Source: an uncultured Clostridia bacterium
GTDB taxonomy: Bacteria > Bacillota > Clostridia > Christensenellales > Borkfalkiaceae
Direction: 5' to 3'
NCBI GenBank assembly: GCA_947624965.1
Contig: CANQMN010000009.1
Coordinates: 1 to 64,000, forward strand
DNA length: 64,000 nucleotides
The notes beneath the pieces are model-generated. The model worked only from the letters and a program-made list of their open reading frames with translations. It did not search any database and was not told the origin of the DNA. Of the stretch, positions 1 through 45,812 are shown one piece after another (position 1 is the stretch's first letter; every line of letters starts with the position of its first letter). The position numbers were made by a program, and so were the translations under genes.

Positions 1-77
1 TCCTATCGGACAAGAAGCCGAAAGGGTTCGGCAAATTGGGTGCGCTGCCGCAGGGAGACCCTGCTCCGCGCCGTAAA
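1..77 (-). repeat. Copy C of the dispersed repeat, truncated by the window edge
   Basis: Reverse complement GGCGCGGAGCAGGGTCTCCCTGCGGCAGCGCACCCAATTTGCCGAACCCTTTCGGCTT... matches copy B at 23025. Confidence 0.8.
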
Positions 78-81
78 GGTT

Positions 82-215
82 TCGTGCGATTTTTTGCTTG
101 CGAAAAAAATCGCACGAGGAAACCTTCCGCGCCGCTGTAACTTGCTCGCGCTCTTCTTCGTCCTATCTGACAAGAAGCGCGAAGTGTCGCGCAAATGGGG
201 TGCGCCCTCTCCCCG
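82..215 (-). repeat. Copy D of the ~151-bp dispersed repeat (GCGCGA stem variant)
   Basis: Reverse complement matches copy A at 22865-23015, including hairpin 82-116 and GCGCGA-loop-TCGCGC stem (177-192). Confidence 0.8.
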
Positions 216-411: not shown

Positions 412-1905
412 TCAGTAGAGGAGCTGCGCGTCGTCGGGGAGCGTGAGCACGGCGGCGTTGTCGCCGCGGAGGGTGTACTGCTCCTCGTGAAAGGTGCGGT
501 GCGGAATGAGATAGACCCGCTTGTCCGCCCAGCTCGTGCGCGCCTCGATGGAGAAATACCGCTCGCCGAGAATTTTTTCCATGAGGGAGCGGTTGAGCTC
601 GATGATGACGGATCGGTATCCGTTCGCGAAGCAATCGAGGATCTCGCTGCGCAACCGCATCGCCATATAGGTGTGCGAGAGGACGAACCCCTCCCGCGTA
701 CAATGGGGACATGGCTGCAACAGGAAGGACTGCAACTCGTTGTTCGTGCGCTTGCGCGTGAAGAGCGTTACGCAGAGCTCGCTCATAGGGAGCACCCTGC
801 TCTTGGCGCGGTCGAGAGAGAGCGCGTCCGCGAGCGCGGCGTTGACGGCGGCGCGGTGCTCCTCTTCCGCCATATCGATGAAGTCGACCGCGACGATGCC
901 GCCGATGTTGCGGAGGCGCACCTGCCGCGCGATCTCGCGCGCCGCCAGCAGATTGACTTCGTAGACCGTGCTTTCGAGATCCGTCTCGCCCGTGAATTTT
1001 CCCGTGTTGACGTCGATGACCGTCATCGCCTCGGTGCGGTCGATCACGAGATACGCCCCGTTTTCCAATTCCACGCGCGGTTCCGCGAGTTTGAGGATCT
1101 GCTCGCTGAGCCCGAACTGCGCGAACATTTGGCGGCGTCCCTCGTACATGACGATCTGTTTTTCGTTCAAATCGCTCCGCATGCGCGCGAGGCGGAGCAC
1201 CTTTTCATAGAGCTCCCTGTCGCCGACGTAAATTTTGTTCACGCCGCCGAGGGAATCGCGCATGACCTTGACGGGGAGATCGTATTCGCTGTAAACCGCC
1301 GTGCCGACGGGCGCGGTGCGCGCCTCCTTCAACGCGGCACGGTAGACGCGTTTGAGATATTCCGCCTCGGTGCGCAGATGCCGCTTGCTCGCCTCCTGCG
1401 CCGCCGTCCTGACGATGAACCCCTCCCCCTTTTCGCGGAACTTGTCCGCCTCTTTGAGGAGCGTTCCGCGCACGGCGTCGTCGGTGATCTTGCGGGAGAT
1501 ACCCAAAAAATCCGTTTTGGGAAGGTAGATGAGGTTTTTCCCGACGAAGGAGAGGTCGCAGGTGATCTTCGCGCCCTTGTTGCCGCGCGGCGCCTTCACG
1601 ACCTGTACGAGGATCTCGTCCCCCTCTTTGAGGCAGAGCCGTTCCCGCACGTTGCCCGCGCCGTCGTAGGTGGAAAAGAGCGCCGTGCCTTCGTCGAGGG
1701 GGAGATAGCAATTCCGCTCCATGCCGCAGGAGACGAACGCCGCCTGCATGCCCGCGACGACGTTGCACACCCTCCCCTTATAGACGTTGCCGAGCACGTT
1801 GCCGCTCGGCTCGTGCTCCACGCCCATTTCGATTATTTTCCCGTCCTCCGCATAGACGACGATCTGTTCGTTGCAGAAGCGGTCGAAAAACCATTCTCTT
1901 TTCAT
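412..1905 (-). CDS. rng: Ribonuclease G/E family protein
   Basis: 497 aa; N-terminal S1-like segment (GNVYKGRVCNVVAGMQAAFVSCG), catalytic-type motif VIDVNTGKFTG, and zinc-link-like CPHC. Confidence 0.93.
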   Translation of the reverse strand: MKREWFFDRFCNEQIVVYAEDGKIIEMGVEHEPSGNVLGNVYKGRVCNVVAGMQAAFVSCGMERNCYLPLDEGTALFSTYDGAGNVRERLCLKEGDEILVQVVKAPRGNKGAKITCDLSFVGKNLIYLPKTDFLGISRKITDDAVRGTLLKEADKFREKGEGFIVRTAAQEASKRHLRTEAEYLKRVYRAALKEARTAPVGTAVYSEYDLPVKVMRDSLGGVNKIYVGDRELYEKVLRLARMRSDLNEKQIVMYEGRRQMFAQFGLSEQILKLAEPRVELENGAYLVIDRTEAMTVIDVNTGKFTGETDLESTVYEVNLLAAREIARQVRLRNIGGIVAVDFIDMAEEEHRAAVNAALADALSLDRAKSRVLPMSELCVTLFTRKRTNNELQSFLLQPCPHCTREGFVLSHTYMAMRLRSEILDCFANGYRSVIIELNRSLMEKILGERYFSIEARTSWADKRVYLIPHRTFHEEQYTLRGDNAAVLTLPDDAQLLY

Positions 1906-10797: not shown

Positions 10798-10896
10798 CCC
10801 CCGTCGGTATATCGGACGCGCAGGCGCGCGCCCCGAGGGAGAGGTAGAGACGTCGAGAGGAAAAAGCCGCGCGCGATATGTACTTAATGTACTTAC

Positions 10897-11187
10897 CCCC
10901 CCCTTTCAAAGGGGGAGGGTTGGGTGGGGGTTGGAACCTCTCCACTCCCCCTACCCTATCGCCCGCACGTATTGTGCCGCCGAAGGGCGACACGAGGAGC
11001 AAAGCGACGAAGTACCCCTCCCCCTCCCCTACCCCTCCCCCTCGCGTTGCGAGGGGGAGGGTAACAAGAAGGACAAGGCAAAGAGGGGAAGACGAGCGGG
11101 AAAATCTCACTCCCCCTTTGAAAGGGGCTGAACAGGAGCCGCCGAACGGTATATATTTACCTCCCCCTTTGAAAGGGGGAGGTGAAA
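10897..11187. repeat. Cluster of C-rich/G-rich palindromic repeats
   Basis: Hairpins CCCCCCCCTTTCAAAGGGGGAGGG, CCCTCCCCCTCGCGTTGCGAGGGGGAGGG and ACCTCCCCCTTTGAAAGGGGGAGGT; related copies at ~39.6-40.0 kb. Confidence 0.8.
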
Positions 11188-11312: not shown

Positions 11313-13868
<2,556 letters not shown>

Positions 13869-13963: not shown

Positions 13964-14112
13964 GGCGCGGAGCAGGGTCTCCCTGCGGAGCGCACCTAAT
14001 TGGGCGAGCCCTGTCGCCTTATTGTCTAAACAAAACGCTTTTCGCAGTGAACATGTTTATGCAGGAGGAGGGTTCGCTCGCGCAATTCTTTTCAACGCAA
14101 AGAATTGCGCGA
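13964..14112 (+). repeat. Divergent copy (E) of the ~151-bp dispersed structured repeat
   Basis: Starts GGCGCGGAGCAGGGTCTCCCTGCG, as in the 22865 and 23025 copies; ends in 14-bp hairpin TCGCGCAATTCTTT-TCAACGC-AAAGAATTGCGCGA. Confidence 0.75.
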
Positions 14113-14116
14113 AATT

Positions 14117-16030
14117 TCAGATATCCAAATCGGTTACCAACGTCGCATTTTCCTCGATGAACTGACGGCGCAGGGACGGGCTCTCCCCCATGAGCATGGA
14201 GAACATCTTGTCCGCCTCCATCGCGTCCTTCATGCTCACGCGGATGAGCGTGCGCGTGGAGGGATCCATCGTCGTCGTCCAGAGCTGTTCGGTGCTCATC
14301 TCGCCAAGCCCCTTGTAGCGTTGGTATTCCACCTTGTTGTTGTTCGCGGCGTCGTACGCCGTCTTTTCCTCCTCGGTGTAGAGGTAGACGTCCTCCTTGC
14401 CCTTTACGCTCGCCTTGTAGAGCGGGGGCATGGCGGAATACACGTGCCCGTGCTCGATGAGCGGACGCATATAGCGGAAGAGGAAGGTGAGAAGAAGGAT
14501 ACGGATATGCGAGCCGTCTACATCGGCATCCGTCATGGAAATAATTCTATCGTAGCGCAGTTTGCTCTCGTCGAAGTCGTCCAAAATGCCGCATCCGAAC
14601 GCCGTGATCATCGCCTTGATCTCCGCGTTTTCGAGGACGCGGTTGAGCCGCACCTTCTCGACGTTGAGAATTTTACCGCGGAGCGGCAGGATCGCCTGAA
14701 ATCTTCTGTCCCGTCCCTGCTTTGCCGTGCCGCCTGCCGAATCGCCCTCGACGATGTAGATCTCGCACAGCTCGGGTCTCTTGTCCGAACAGTCGGCGAG
14801 CTTGCCGGGGAGCGTCGTCGTTTCGAGCACGCCCTTTCTCCGCGTGAGTTCGCGCGCGGAGCGCGCCGCATCGCGCGCCTTCTGCGCCGTAATGCACCGC
14901 AGAACGAGTTCGCGCGCCTCGGAGGGATGTTCTTCGAGGTATTCTCCCAGCCGCTCCGCGACGCACTTGGAGACGAAGGGACGGATGAAGGAGTTGTTGA
15001 GTTTGTCCTTGGTCTGCGACTCGAACTGCGCGTTTTCGAGCTTGACGGAGACGACCGCCGTGATGCCCTCGCGCACGTCCTCGCCCGTGAGCCTGTCGCT
15101 CTCTTTGAGCACGCCGAGCTTCTTGCCCGCGTCGTTGATGACCTTGGTGAGCGCGAGTTTGAGTCCCTCCACGTGCGTGCCGCCGTCGATGGTGTTCACG
15201 TTGTTCGCGTACGAATAGATGACCTCGTTGTAGCCGTCGTTGTATTGCAGGGCGACTTCGCAGACGGTGGTGTCCTCCTGCGCCTCGAAATAGAGGGGTT
15301 CCGGAAAGAGCGTCGTCGAACTGCTGTTGAGTTCGGAGACGAGCTCGCGGATCCCGCCCTCATAACAAAACGTATCCGAGCGGGGCTTCTCGCCGCGGAG
15401 GTCTGTGAGCGTGATGGAGAGCCCCTTGTTGAGGAAGGCGAGCTCCTTCAAGCGGATTTTGAGCGTATCGTATTTGAATACGGTGGTCTCGAAGATCTCC
15501 GCATCGGGATAGAAGGTAACCTTCGTGCCCGTCTTTTCCGTGTCGCCCACGATGGCGAGCGGGCGCTGGGGAACGCCGCGGTTGTAGATCTGTTTATAGA
15601 CGTGCCCGTTCTGGTAGATCTCCGCTTCCAGCCATTCGGAGAGCGCGTTCACCGCCTTTACGCCCACGCCGTGCAGACCGCTCGACACCTTGTAGCCCGA
15701 GTCCCCGCCGAATTTTCCGCCCGCGTTCACCTTGGTGAACACGACTTCCACGGTGGAGATCCCCTCTTTGGGGTGGATCTCGGTGGGAATGCCCCTGCCG
15801 TTGTCCTCCACGGTACAGCTACCGTCTGCGTTGATCGTAACGTCCACGCGGTCGCAGTAGCCCGCGAGCGCCTCGTCGATGGAGTTGTCCACGACCTCGC
15901 TGACGAGGTGATGGAGCCCCTTTTCGTCCGTGGAGCTGATGTACATGCCGGGACGCTTCCGGATGTGTTCGAGCCCGTCGAGGACCTGAATTTGTTCCGC
16001 GCCGTAGGCGGTTTCCACTTTTTCAGACAT
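14117..16030 (-). CDS. gyrB: DNA gyrase subunit B
   Basis: MSEKVETAYGAEQIQVLDGLEHIRKRPGMYI, EIYIVEGDSAGGTAKQGRDRRFQAILPLRGKILNVEK, QRYKGLGEM. Confidence 0.97.
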   Translation of the reverse strand: MSEKVETAYGAEQIQVLDGLEHIRKRPGMYISSTDEKGLHHLVSEVVDNSIDEALAGYCDRVDVTINADGSCTVEDNGRGIPTEIHPKEGISTVEVVFTKVNAGGKFGGDSGYKVSSGLHGVGVKAVNALSEWLEAEIYQNGHVYKQIYNRGVPQRPLAIVGDTEKTGTKVTFYPDAEIFETTVFKYDTLKIRLKELAFLNKGLSITLTDLRGEKPRSDTFCYEGGIRELVSELNSSSTTLFPEPLYFEAQEDTTVCEVALQYNDGYNEVIYSYANNVNTIDGGTHVEGLKLALTKVINDAGKKLGVLKESDRLTGEDVREGITAVVSVKLENAQFESQTKDKLNNSFIRPFVSKCVAERLGEYLEEHPSEARELVLRCITAQKARDAARSARELTRRKGVLETTTLPGKLADCSDKRPELCEIYIVEGDSAGGTAKQGRDRRFQAILPLRGKILNVEKVRLNRVLENAEIKAMITAFGCGILDDFDESKLRYDRIISMTDADVDGSHIRILLLTFLFRYMRPLIEHGHVYSAMPPLYKASVKGKEDVYLYTEEEKTAYDAANNNKVEYQRYKGLGEMSTEQLWTTTMDPSTRTLIRVSMKDAMEADKMFSMLMGESPSLRRQFIEENATLVTDLDI

Positions 16031-16103
16031 AGCTTCTCCTTTTTTTGAAGGCCTTCTCGCGCGTGCGCGCATAATGCGCGCGCGTGCGCGCGTCGTTGAG
16101 GAC

Positions 16104-16132
16104 ATTATAACACAAGCCCCGTGAAAAGTAAA
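16104..16132 (-). promoter_or_regulatory. Putative gyrB promoter
   Basis: Minus strand TTTACT, 17 nt spacer, TATAAT (16109-16104), upstream of gyrB. Confidence 0.55.
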
Positions 16133-21584: not shown

Positions 21585-21616
21585 AAAAAGCGGAGCCGCG
21601 GCTCCGCTTTTTGTTT
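21585..21616. terminator. Bidirectional terminator between convergent genes
   Basis: AAAAAGCGGAGCC-GC-GGCTCCGCTTTTT inverted repeat. Confidence 0.7.
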
Positions 21617-22797
21617 TACCGGTCGTATTCTCTGCGCAACGCTTCAAAGGCGGGCAGGCTCCTCTCGATGATCTTCCTGTCCACGCAATAGGAGATGCGC
21701 ACGTACCCCTCCACGCCGAAACTGTCCGACGGCACGAGCAACAGCTCGTGCTTTTTTGCGCGCGCGCAGAACGCGGCGGCGGAGGGCTCGGGCGACTTCA
21801 CGAACAGATAAAACGCCCCCTCGGGCAGGACGCACTCGTAGCCGTACGAACGGAGCGCATTCCACAGCAGGTCGCGGTTTTTGCGGTATTCCTCCACGTC
21901 CGCGGACTTCCCCGCACACCTTGCCACGACGTGCTGGAAGAGGACGGGCGCGCAGACGAACCCGAGCGCGCGCCCCGCGCCCGCGACGGCGGCAAACACC
22001 TTCTCCGCCGCCGTGCACCGCGGCGAGACGGCGACATAGCCGATGCGCTCGCCCGCGAGCGAGAGCGATTTGGAGTACGAATAGCAGACGATGACGTCGT
22101 CGTAGACGTTCATGGGATAGACGGGGGGTGCGCCGTAGCACAGCTCGCGATAGGGCTCGTCGGCGAGGAGGAAAATCGGCTCCCCCTTTTCGGCGCTCTT
22201 TTTGCGCAGGAGCGCGCCGAGCGCGCGCATCTCCGCCTCCGTGTACACCGCGCCCGTGGGATTATTGGGAGAATTGACGATGACCGCCTTTGTCCGCCGC
22301 CCAATCGCCCCTTCGAGCGCGGCGAGATCGAGATGAAAATCGCCGCCCGCGCGCACCGCGACGAGCTTCGCGCCCGCCGCCTCCGTAAAGACGCGGTATT
22401 CGGGGAAGAAGGGCGCGACGGCGATAAATTCGTCCCCCTCCTCCGCGAGCGCGTGCACCGCGGCGGTGAGAGATGCCGCCGCCCCGCACGTCATATAGAC
22501 GAGGTCGGGGGGCAGGGGAACGCCGAACGCGCGGCGCACTTCGTCGGCGATCGCCTTCCGCACTTCGGGCGCGCCCGCCGCGGACGTGTAGCCGTGGAGC
22601 GTCTCCGCGGGCGTCTCCGCGATGAGGCGCAAAATTTCCCCGTTCACGCACGGGGGCGCGGGCACGCTGGGATTGCCGAGCGAAAAATCGAACACGTTCT
22701 CCGCGCCGATCTCCGCCTTGCGGCGGGCGCCGTATTCAAACAGCTCCCGTATCTCCGAGCGTTCTTCCCCCAATTTTTGCATATGTTTGTTGATCAT
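21616..22797 (-). CDS. PLP-dependent aminotransferase (class I/II)
   Basis: VIVNSPNNPTGAVYTEAEM, CYSYSKSLSLAGERIGYVAV (PLP lysine); start MINKHMQKLGEERSEIRELFEYG. Confidence 0.9.
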   Translation of the reverse strand: MINKHMQKLGEERSEIRELFEYGARRKAEIGAENVFDFSLGNPSVPAPPCVNGEILRLIAETPAETLHGYTSAAGAPEVRKAIADEVRRAFGVPLPPDLVYMTCGAAASLTAAVHALAEEGDEFIAVAPFFPEYRVFTEAAGAKLVAVRAGGDFHLDLAALEGAIGRRTKAVIVNSPNNPTGAVYTEAEMRALGALLRKKSAEKGEPIFLLADEPYRELCYGAPPVYPMNVYDDVIVCYSYSKSLSLAGERIGYVAVSPRCTAAEKVFAAVAGAGRALGFVCAPVLFQHVVARCAGKSADVEEYRKNRDLLWNALRSYGYECVLPEGAFYLFVKSPEPSAAAFCARAKKHELLLVPSDSFGVEGYVRISYCVDRKIIERSLPAFEALRREYDR

Positions 22798-22864
22798 GAT
22801 GACTCCTTTGGGGAATATAGGCGTACCCCCTCCCCGTTTGCGCCGCCGGGCTACTGCGGCATTT

Positions 22865-23015
22865 GGCGCGGAGCAGGGTCTCCCTGCGCCAGCGCACACA
22901 ATTTGCGCGACACTTCGCGCTTACTGTCCGATAGGACGAAGAAGAGCGCGAGCAAGTTACAGCGACGCGGAAGGTTTCCTCGTGCGATTTTTTTCGTCAG
23001 CAAAAAATCGCACGA
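22865..23015 (+). repeat. Copy A of the ~151-bp dispersed structured repeat
   Basis: Near identical to 23025-23175 with a period of 160 bp; terminal 14-bp hairpin 22980-23015. Confidence 0.9.
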
Positions 23016-23024
23016 ATCCTTTAC

Positions 23025-23175
23025 GGCGCGGAGCAGGGTCTCCCTGCGTCAGCGCACACAATTTGCCGAACCCTTTCGGCTTAATGTCCGATAAGACGAA
23101 GAAGAGCGCGGGTAAGTTACAGCGACGCGGAAGGTTTCCTCGTGCGATTTTTTTCGTCAGCAAAAAATCGCACGA
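23025..23175 (+). repeat. Copy B of the ~151-bp dispersed structured repeat
   Basis: Near identical to copy A except for the internal stem (GCCGAA-CCCT-TTCGGC); terminal hairpin 23140-23175, 4 bp past the uvrA stop. Confidence 0.9.
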
Positions 23176-23179
23176 AATT

Positions 23180-25993
23180 TTACAGGACTTTTTTCAAAAA
23201 TTGTCCCGTGTAGCTCTGCGCGACTTCGGCGACTTCCTCGGGCGTGCCCGTGCAGACGATCGTCCCGCCGCCGTCGCCGCCCTCGGGACCGAGGTCGATG
23301 ATGTGGTCGGCGATCTTTACTACGTCGAGGTTGTGCTCGATGACGAGCACGGTGTTTCCGCCGTCGCGGAGCTTCATGAGAATGCCGACGAGCTTTTCCA
23401 CGTCGTAGCTGTGCAGACCCGTCGTGGGCTCGTCGAGGATATAGAACGTCTTGCCCGTGGAGCGTTTGGAGAGCTCGGTCGCGAGCTTCACGCGCTGCGC
23501 CTCGCCGCCCGAGAGCGTCGTCGCGCTCTGCCCGAGCTTGATATACCCGAGCCCCACTTCGTTGAGCGTGGAGACCTTGTTGTAGATGGAGGGGTGCGCC
23601 TTGAAAAATTCGCACGCCTCCTCCACCGTCATTTCGAGCACGTCCGAGATATTTTTGCCCTTGTAGCGCACTTCGAGCGTCTCGCGGTTGTACCGCTTGC
23701 CGCCGCACACCTCGCAGGGGACGTACACGTCGGGCAAGAAGTGCATCTCGATCTTCATGATGCCGTCGCCCTCGCAGTTTTCGCACCGCCCCCCGGGGAC
23801 GTTAAAGGAGAATCTGCCCGCCTTGAACCCCATCGCCTTGGCGTCCGCCGTCTGCGCGAACAGCTCGCGGATGGCGGAAAAAACGCCCGTATAGGTGGCG
23901 GGATTGGAGCGCGGCGTGCGCCCGATGGGAGATTGGTCGATGGCGATGACCTTGTCGAAATATTCCAGCCCCGAATATGCGCCGCTCTTCCCCGTGGGAA
24001 GGCGTGCGCCGTTGAGCTCGTTGGAGAGGATGGGGAGAATAATTTCGTTGACGAGCGAACTCTTGCCCGAGCCGCTCACCCCCGTGACCGCGGTGATGAG
24101 CCCCGCGGGGATCTCCGCCGTGATGCCCTTCAAATTGTTTTGGCGGCAATCGGTGACGCGGAAGTACCGCCCGTCCTTTTCCTTGCGGACCGCGGGCACC
24201 TCGATCTTCCGCCGCCCCGCGAGGAAGTCCCCCGTGATGGAGCGCGGCTCGTTCATAATGTCCTCCGCCGTGCCGCATGCGACGACTTCACCGCCGTGCA
24301 CGCCCGCCTTGGGACCGATGTCCACGATATAGTCCGCCGCCCTCATCGTCTCCTCGTCGTGCTCGACGACGATGAGGGTGTTGCCGATGTCGCGCAGACC
24401 CTTCAAAGAATCGAGCAGCCGCGCGTTGTCCCGCTGGTGGAGCCCGATGCTCGGCTCGTCGAGAATGTACAGAACGCCCGTGAGCGCGGAGCCGATCTGC
24501 GTGGCGAGGCGGATGCGCTGGCTCTCCCCGCCCGAGAGCGTCGCCGCGTTCCGCGAGAGGGTGAGATAGTCGAGCCCGACGCCCACGAGAAAGCGGATGC
24601 GGCTCTTTATCTCTTTGAGAACGACGCCCGCGATCGCGGCTTGGGTGGGCGTGAGCGAGAGCCCGTCCAAAAATCCCGCGAGCGCAGAGACGGGCATTTC
24701 GCACACTTCGGCGATATTTTTGCCGCCCAGCGTTACCGCGAGCGCCTCTTTTTTGAGCCGCCGCCCGTGGCAGACGGGGCAATCGGACGTGCGCATGTAC
24801 CGTTCGATGTCCCACTTTACGCCCACCGAACTCGTTTGATTGTATCTCCGCTCCAAATTGTTGACAAAGCCCTCCCAGCCCACTTGAATAGTGGATTGGT
24901 AGGTACGGCTCCGGAAGTCCAAATCGATCTTTTCCCCGCCGTTGCCGTACATCAGAAGTTCAAAAATGCCGTCGGGCAGGTCCTTGACGGGCACATCGAG
25001 GGAGAAATGATAGTGCCGCGCGAGCGCTTCCACATAGGTCTGCGTGACGCTCGGCGAATCGAGCATCCAGCCGCTGATGCGGATGGCGCCCTCGCGGAGC
25101 GTCTTGGTGCGGTCGGGGCAGATGAGGTCGGCGTCCACCGCCTGTTTGAAGCCCAGCCCCGTGCATTCGGGGCAGGCTCCCCACGGCGTATTGAAGGAGA
25201 AGAGGCGGGGTTCGATCTCCTCGATGGAGATGCCGCAGTCGGGACAGGCGTACCGCGAGGAATACAGCGTCTCCTCTTCGTCGCGGTCCACGATGACGAG
25301 CCCGTCCGAGAGTTTCAGCGCGGTCTCCAAGCTCTCCGTGAGCCGTTTGAGAATGCCCTCCTTCACGACGAGGCGGTCGATGACGACGGAGATGTTGTGT
25401 TTTACGTTCTTGTCGAGGGAAATTTCCTCTTGCAGGTCGTAGACGATGCCGTCGATCTTGACGCGGGCATAGCCGCTCTTGCGGAAGGAGGCGAGCTCCT
25501 TCTTGTATTCGCCCTTCTTCCCCCGCACGACGGGCGCGGCGACGAGAAACTTGGTCCCCGCGGGCATTTCCATCACCCTGTCGGCGATCTCGTCCACCGT
25601 TTGGCGCCTTATCTCCCTGCCGCATTTGGGACAGTGCGGGACCCCCGCGCGCGCGAACAGAAGGCGCAAATAGTCGTAGATCTCGGTAACTGTGCCCACC
25701 GTGGAGCGCGGGTTGTGCGACGTCGTCTTTTGGTCGATGGAGATGGCGGGCGAGAGCCCGTCGATGCTCTCCACGTTCGGCTTTTCCATCATGCCGAGGA
25801 ACTGCCGCGCGTACGAGGAGAGGCTCTCCATGTACCGCCTCTGTCCCTCCGCGAAGATGGTATCGAACGCGAGCGTGGATTTCCCGCTCCCCGAGAGCCC
25901 CGTGAATACGGTGAGGCTCCCGCGCGGGATATGCACGTCGATGTTTTTGAGGTTGTTTTCTTTCGCCCCTTTGACGAAAATTTCTTCTTTCAT
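23180..25993 (-). CDS. uvrA: Excinuclease ABC subunit A
   Basis: [66 protein letters not shown]; two ABC cassettes and zinc motifs. The upstream N-terminal part of the long ORF is spurious. Confidence 0.97.
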
Positions 25994-39412: not shown

Positions 39413-39581
39413 ATTTCTTCCTCCTGCATCTTCGGGGGTTTCCCCCGTCGTCATAGGCTAATAAATTATATTAGTATTTATTCTTTTTGTAAACTGTTTT
39501 TTTATGCGTTTTGCAAAAAATTCCCGACAATTTTCAAATTTTTCCACGCGGGCGGAAAAATATGCAGGGCAAACAAAACAC

Positions 39582-40022
39582 CTCCCCCTTTCCAAGGGGG
39601 AGGATAAGGTGGGGGTTCTGTGCCCGTCTCCCCCTCCCCTACCCCTCCCCCTCGCGTTGCGAGGGGGAGGGTAAGAAAGACAGAGCGAGGGAAAATAAAA
39701 AAGAGGCGGGAAAAATGCGCGGGGCAAACAAATCACCTCCCCCTTCCAAAGGGGGAGGATAAGGTGGGGGTTGCGTGCCCGTCTTCCCCCTCCCCTACTG
39801 GGTGCGGCGGCAGGTACCGCCGCACCCCCCGTACTTCGCCGCGATGCGCCTCGTGCCGCGCTTAGTAGATAATAGTGCGCGCGGGGCGCGCTTGCCTGCG
39901 CTCCCGTCGCGGCGCGCTACTTCGTGCCGCGCTTAGTAGGCAATAGTGCGCGCGGGGCACAGTCCACCGGACTGTTGAGCAGAACGCGCCGCTCCCCCCT
40001 CGCGTTGCGAGGGGGAGGGCAA
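39582..40022. repeat. Intergenic block of C/G-rich palindromic repeats
   Basis: Two CACCTCCCCCTT..AAGGGGGAGGATAAGGTGGGGGTT copies, CCCTCCCCCTCGCGTTGCGAGGGGGAGGG copies, and CGTGCCGCGCTTAGTAG[A/G][T/C]AATAGTGCGCGCGGGGC repeated twice. Confidence 0.8.
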
Positions 40023-40098
40023 GAAAGAGAGCGCGGGACGCTTCCGAACAAAAAAGGGAGACCGAGCGGTCTCCCTTTGCATGATAGTTTCGCTTCCG

Positions 40099-45549: not shown

Positions 45550-45587
45550 ATGGTCTCCTTGGGAATCGGGGGCGGCTCCCCCTCCCC

Positions 45588-45812
45588 TACCCCTCCCCCT
45601 CAACGTGAGGGGGAGGGCATGTAAGGTTGCTCTACCCCTCAACGTGAGGAGGGGCATGTAAGGTCGCTCTACCCCTCGCCGTGAGGGGGAGGGCATGTAA
45701 GGTCGCTCTACCCCTCGCCGTGACGGGGAGGGCATGTAAGGTCGCTCTACCCCTCGCCGTGAGGGGGAGGGCATGTAAGGTTGCTCTACCCCTCGCCGTG
45801 ACGGGGGGTAAA
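45588..45812. repeat. Tandem array of ~39-bp GC-rich hairpin units (about 5.5 copies)
   Basis: Repeating CTACCCCTCGCCGTGAGGGGGAGGGCATGTAAGGTCGCT with minor variants. Confidence 0.9.

Follow-up and report, generated by a model that had tools for sequence, protein, structure and literature searches.

The window analysed here, a stretch of 64,000 nucleotides, sits in contig C9 (83.9 kb) of a 1.79 Mb uncultured Clostridia genome that is 98.7% complete, and it holds five copies (A to E) of a structured repeat, each of them found where a preliminary description had placed it. Two full units on the minus strand, copy B (23025..23177) and copy A (22865..23017), follow one another in tandem behind uvrA (NF001503; 23180..26353, minus strand), with copy B starting 2 nt past the uvrA stop codon. 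The next gene downstream encodes a PLP-dependent aminotransferase (21616..22797, minus strand) and adjoins uvrA directly in relatives. Sequence identity between copies A and B is 92% over 152 bp, which bears out their description as nearly identical, and their internal stem is indeed wholly changed while staying paired (GCGCGA-CACT-TCGCGC in A vs. GCCGAA-CCCT-TTCGGC in B). Copy E (13964..14114, minus strand) belongs to a divergent subfamily and lies between gyrB (14117..16105, minus strand), which is the gene upstream of it and whose stop codon is 2 nt from its start, and gyrA (11313..13868, minus strand) downstream; it has a third version of the stem, GGCGA-GCCCTG-TCGCC, and an alternative terminal hairpin, both as described.

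The two remaining copies lie at the start of the contig on the plus strand and carry the same two stem variants as A and B in unchanged order, again in agreement with the earlier account. Copy C (1..72) is cut by the contig start and keeps only its 3' part, while copy D (about 77..205) has its hairpin I at 82-117 and its last hairpin replaced by a GC-rich palindromic repeat. Since the end of contig C6, the start of C9, the end of C8 and the start of C24 all fall within arrays of the same subfamily, C and D are part of an array that was broken by assembly. The gene converging on them (window 412-1905) encodes a ribonuclease of the RNase E/G family (TIGR00757), a neighbour of possible interest should the repeats have a role in mRNA decay, though it is probably there by coincidence. 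Repeats of other kinds are also present in the window, namely a tandem array of about six copies of a 39-bp unit (GGGCATGTAAGGTYGCTCTACCCCTCGCCGTGA..) with an internal palindrome in each (45576-45806) and further dispersed GC-rich palindromic repeats (CCTCCCCCTTTGAAAGGGGGAGG and CTCCCCCTCCCCTACCCCTCCCCC..; 10895-11185 and 39554-40025).

Strand and anatomy of the unit

Judged from the surrounding genes, the unit makes biological sense on the strand opposite to that used in the preliminary description. Read in this sense, the unit is a non-coding element of about 150-210 nt whose usual place is a few bases 3' of a stop codon; it starts 0-6 nt past the stop with hairpin I and continues through a middle segment, hairpin 2, hairpin 1 and a tail, an order that copy B displays in full. 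Hairpin I (23140..23175 in copy B, with arms TCGTGCGATTTTTT..AAAAAATCGCACGA, and 22980..23015 in copy A, both on the minus strand) begins TTC[AG].. and has variable arms, with a loop that is often filled with other GC-rich repeats. At four loci (L047, L170, L171, and L180) the loop is an insertion hot spot for such repeats, e.g., CCACCCCTTGGCTCCCCCTTG..GACTGAGGGGGTGTC, between the arms. The middle segment is 44-52 nt long and starts with GGAAA in the most frequent type; when 116 diverse copies were folded with RNAalifold, it showed no common helix beyond hairpins 2 and 1, and its fold energies were about equal in sense and antisense. Hairpin 2 (22899..22928 with its flanking strands in copy A, minus strand) has the layout CAATAA-GCnnnn-loop-nnnnGC-AAATTG.

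Hairpin 1 (22865..22899 in copy A, minus strand) combines a GCGC outer stem with a 6-bp inner stem, GCAGGG/CCCTGC in this copy, and is the last helix of the unit in sense, followed by the tail GTRATTTnnAA. The GCAGGG-TCT-CCCTGC hairpin had been described as fixed and as starting each copy, and neither statement holds: it forms the end of the unit when read in the strand of the preceding gene, and other copies have GCAAAA..TTTTGC, GCGGAA..TTCCGC, GGAAGG..CCTTCC and so on, in all about 20 stem sequences that are nearly all perfectly paired. Hairpin 1 modules are interchangeable among copies. This hairpin is also found alone, as short tandem units beside a full copy (at locus L014, 1410-1541, which is about 20645-20775 of contig C8 in the present genome), so the module can multiply by itself.

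Conservation reaches background level about 11 nt past the core and about 9 nt ahead of hairpin I. A TTAC lying 5' of the unit was at first taken for a possible IS608-type target, an idea given up after the sense strand and the GTRATTT tail had been recognised. Five genomes (G001, G004, G011, G035, and G040) and genus g8 have a longer subtype, which measures about 200 nt, has two additional helices and may be the older form. In eight loci of this subtype (L105, L106, L113, L114, L118, L155, L388, and L390) the apical loop of the extra helix often resembles AGGGCTTnCAATnTAG, across genera, which makes this loop a candidate binding motif.

Extent and distribution of the family

With 36 diverse copies we built a covariance model of the core (69 nt), which has 38 matches in the genome at E ≤ 0.01, and near-identical copies of one subfamily stand at unrelated loci. 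The repeat is thus multi-copy and dispersed; it is also intergenic, shorter than 300 bp and free of open reading frames, as is characteristic of MITE-type elements. A search of Rfam at gathering scores gave no match in the window, permissive thresholds gave chance-level matches only, in relatives, and we found no paper that describes a repeat like it from Borkfalkia or Borkfalkiaceae, all of which agrees with the earlier view of a dispersed, strongly structured element of no recognised family.

At E ≤ 1e−6 the core model has matches in 60 of 251 genomes of the family, belonging to 3 of its 18 genera, and the copies detected per genome within the genus range from zero to 20 or more. Outside the family there was no match in a sample of 248 genomes of the order, in which the best 20 candidates per genome were scored and distant forms may be missed. 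Within the genomes sampled, the repeat is therefore restricted to a single family of gut Clostridia, of the Borkfalkia type. The named records with copies comprise uncultured Clostridia of rabbit and chicken origin as well as Candidatus Borkfalkia avistercoris and Candidatus Gallimonas gallistercoris. Searches of viral contigs, phages and plasmids gave no match to the repeat. Taken together, this looks like an undescribed, clade-specific family of structured repeats that is probably mobile. The kind, a small structured interspersed bacterial repeat, is already known; the unusual traits are the stop-codon lock, the fixed bulge on variable stems and the interchangeable 3' hairpins.

Paired changes in the stems

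It is clear that the stems change in pairs across the family, as had been proposed from the copies in the window. In an alignment of 36 copies (A1), 14 of 21 pairs are changed on both sides in at least one sequence, giving 84 both-sided cells compared to 24.6 expected from shuffles, and sliding the partner by 1-3 columns as a control takes pairing from 91% down to 30-48%. In a larger alignment of 123 distinct copies (A2), 16 of 21 pairs are changed on both sides (382 vs. 129 cells) and the covariation score is 0.395 compared to 0.140 in shuffles; because A2 had been fitted to the model, A1 gives the fairer test of covariation. None of 500 shuffles matched the observed value in either alignment. 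Hairpin 2 has at least 15 perfectly paired stem sequences. For hairpin I there are 178 distinct arm pairs; within a copy 14.8 of 18 positions pair, vs. 6.0 of 18 between the arms of different copies, where the own-arm figure was selected for high pairing and only the contrast is meaningful.

The exceptions to perfect pairing are distributed unevenly. Hairpin 1 has 6 G-T or A-C wobbles in about 1010 cells, with no strand bias among them, and hairpin I has 42 in about 2780 cells, which at 23 vs. 19 by type show no strand bias either. The wobbles of hairpin 2 comprise 49 A-C and 5 G-T cells in the model orientation, corresponding mostly to the sense strand, a bias that stems mainly from one subfamily; a GCCGTA/TGCGGC stem with a U-G pair persists through a large hairpin 2 subfamily. 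The TTCAC-type hairpin I has an extra C on its 3' arm (TCAC-N5..N5'-C-GTGA), and this bulged C is present in 94 distinct copies and 17 stem contexts, with about 6 copies lacking the bulge. Hairpin I also has a repeated C-T mismatch (72 cells).

Paired changes of this kind could be a product of mutation, through copying between the arms of a palindrome by template switching or hairpin repair, with no selection on the fold. Whole arms do switch together, and hairpins 1 and I are nearly without wobble or half-changed pairs, a pattern that arm-to-arm copying or block exchange would account for as well as shape selection would. However, copying between arms should erase both the bulged C and the C-T mismatch, which persist, as does the wobble stem of hairpin 2 in many copies, and it explains neither the position nor the dispersal of the repeat, so that we consider it unlikely. 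The bulged C and the persistent U-G pair are at odds with pure arm copying, and it is therefore likely that the fold is recognised. The earlier interpretation of the paired changes as selection on structure is therefore upheld in part: the bulge in its many contexts and the wobble subfamily of hairpin 2 speak for it, whereas the half-changed pairs nearly missing from hairpins 1 and I are what arm copying predicts. The native fold has z = −3.1 on each strand, and because both strands fold equally well the folded strand may be either ssDNA or RNA. Paired changes alone do not prove an RNA function.

Position relative to genes

With simple codon-based gene calls at the fetched loci, the unit is in the sense of the upstream gene at 129 of 152 distinct loci. 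Between co-directional genes there are 69 sense and 18 antisense cases, and only 5 loci lie between divergent genes. Among the 83 copies with no element directly upstream, 56 start no more than 6 nt past the stop codon of a long open frame, compared to 6.5% of trials in which a random position fell within 12 nt past a stop. The bias in stop-codon distance and orientation is real, and alone it cannot separate targeting from selective survival.

Placement after stop codons is what ordinary intrinsic terminators of transcription would show, and a few variants of hairpin I (L011 and L029) do have a U tract. That the repeats are terminators is nevertheless highly improbable: the A/B region (22780-23260) has 0 terminator-like sites vs. 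1.2 expected, units lie in the gyrB-gyrA and uvrA intervals, where relatives have little space between the genes, and three hairpins per unit in tandem arrays are not terminator-like. A promoter scan of the A/B region found nothing.

The sense bias and the adjacency to stop codons would also be expected of a functional 3'-UTR or intercistronic RNA, kept by selection gene by gene for mRNA stability, sRNA release or operon uncoupling and spread mainly by duplication as opposed to selfish movement. Covariation beyond the controls, the conserved bulged C, the mostly sense-strand wobbles of hairpin 2 and the stability of the native fold point the same way. Against this stand the equal folding of the two strands and a wobble bias that comes mainly from one subfamily and is missing from hairpin I, as well as the wide range of copy numbers within one genus and the sites of relatives, which are mostly empty even at the same gene. 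On balance this account seems doubtful to us.

Occupied and empty sites

The joined flanks of the uvrA site match contiguous DNA in many of 103 genomes of the genus. The gap between uvrA and the aminotransferase gene is 8-81 bp in 22 relatives that have no full element there, compared to 382 bp in the present genome, and that between gyrB and gyrA is about 10-60 bp in several relatives, compared to 248 bp. Units of other subfamilies stand directly behind the same uvrA stop codon in other species; 6 of 30 genomes have a unit at this site, and on the uvrA gene tree this amounts to at least 5 changes of state. The occupancy numbers for gyrB are minimal, as the automatic score missed copy E and the copy in genome G036. 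Filled and empty orthologous sites are thus present for both genes at about 80-87% flank identity, and with the nearest relatives only about 87% identical the exact junctions cannot be read from these pairs. An all-against-all comparison of flanks for precise junctions returned mostly array artefacts and no pair close enough.

The size, copy number and intergenic location of the repeat would suit a MITE, as had been considered, in its classical form with terminal inverted repeats and a DDE transposase. This reading fails on its defining features and we give it very little credence: the end profiles show no inverted pair (the 5' end is the TTC[AG].. hairpin and the 3' end GTRATTTnnAA), and the comparison of flanks gave no target-site duplication, since the matches above the shuffled level come from neighbours in tandem arrays. 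Single-strand transposition of the IS608 type works with subterminal hairpins and a bulged base, and involves neither terminal inverted repeats nor target-site duplication, all of which the present repeat resembles, so that a REP/BIME-like or IS200/IS605-derived palindromic element moved by a RAYT-type Y1 transposase might be proposed. The Y1 transposase (PF01797), which the preliminary description had suggested looking for, is absent from the genome; it is present in 15 of 61 members of the genus, mostly genomes with few or zero copies and rarely those with many. Moreover, the unit is about 150 nt long with three or more unrelated hairpins and shows no pairs of alternating orientation in the arrays examined, and we regard this origin as very unlikely. 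With these tests failed, the repeat is classed neither as a MITE nor as a REP. A group II intron or IS110-derived element was also considered and rejected, as reverse transcriptase (PF00078) and IS110 (PF01548) are both absent from the genome.

Interpretation

The explanation we favor, and hold to be probable, is an undescribed non-autonomous structured repeat that is recognised by its shape, is mobile, is inserted or retained past stop codons and acts as a cluster of 3'-UTR hairpins. A factor supplied in trans would recognise the folded single strand, ssDNA or RNA, by hairpin I and its bulged C on the 5' side and by hairpins 2 and 1 on the 3' side. The repeat would then insert, or survive, just past stop codons and be transcribed in place as a 3' UTR or intercistronic hairpin cluster, which may shield or separate the upstream message, as is thought for ERIC, YPAL and BOX. 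The recognition, the mover and the effect on mRNA are proposed by analogy with these elements and with the bcr elements (PMC2229807, PMC3049150, PMC3446304, PMC2267715).

Counting against mobility, the genome has none of Y1, reverse transcriptase and IS110, and there is no target-site duplication. Where species share an orthologous position, the element there could be old and inherited vertically, with no movement involved. It is also conceivable, if rather improbable, that the repeat represents a new class of mobile element, driven neither by terminal inverted repeats and DDE nor by Y1, reverse transcriptase or IS110, which is recognised by the shape of a folded strand with variable stems and a fixed bulge and is placed just past stop codons in the same orientation as the gene.

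The repeat amounts to a clean natural experiment, with stem sequences exchanged freely and shape, bulge and stop-codon position kept, and it lets one ask whether what is recognised and copied is the structure itself. With dozens of insertions behind genes, the housekeeping genes gyrB and uvrA among them, 3' UTRs and intercistronic spacing would be altered in a group of animal gut bacteria for which we found no such repeat in the literature.

Comparison with known systems

REP sequences with RAYT are likewise palindromic, extragenic and of high copy number. They are 20-40 bp long (PMC3733652), whereas the present repeat has about 150 nt and three hairpins in a genome with no Y1 gene, and the arrays examined, A/B and C/D among them, run head to tail. 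YPAL (RU-2) of Yersinia is an intergenic element of about 168 bp that is not A+T-rich, has internal inverted repeats without terminal ones, is co-expressed with upstream genes and has known empty and filled sites (PMC2229807). The size class, the intergenic location, the missing terminal inverted repeats and the filled and empty sites are shared with our repeat; by its description YPAL differs in making target duplications of 3-26 bp at dyad symmetries (PMC2229807), whereas no duplication was found for the present repeat, which has several hairpins with variable stems and belongs to an unrelated clade. BOX of pneumococcus is a modular, tandem-capable and highly folded intergenic repeat that sometimes lies at the 3' ends of genes, with terminal inverted repeats, target-site duplications and A-B-C modules (PMC3049150), in place of which our repeat has hairpin I, the middle segment, hairpin 2 and an interchangeable hairpin 1.

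In the Bacillus cereus group, bcr1 is about 150 bp long and mobile-like, and bcr10 and bcr18 have conserved RNA structure and are found in UTRs, all of them clade-restricted (PMC3446304, PMC2267715). They belong to a different clade, and in the portions of their descriptions that we compared, adjacency to stop codons and the bulge are features of our repeat and not of theirs. As a transcribed hairpin, ERIC (IRU) affects upstream mRNA in a way that depends on its orientation (PMC2229807), and it supplies the functional model that we borrow; ERIC itself is palindromic and 127 bp long, and it has terminal inverted repeats and target-site duplication. The best reading by analogy is that the repeat works like YPAL, ERIC, BOX or bcr1, and not like REP or a classical MITE.
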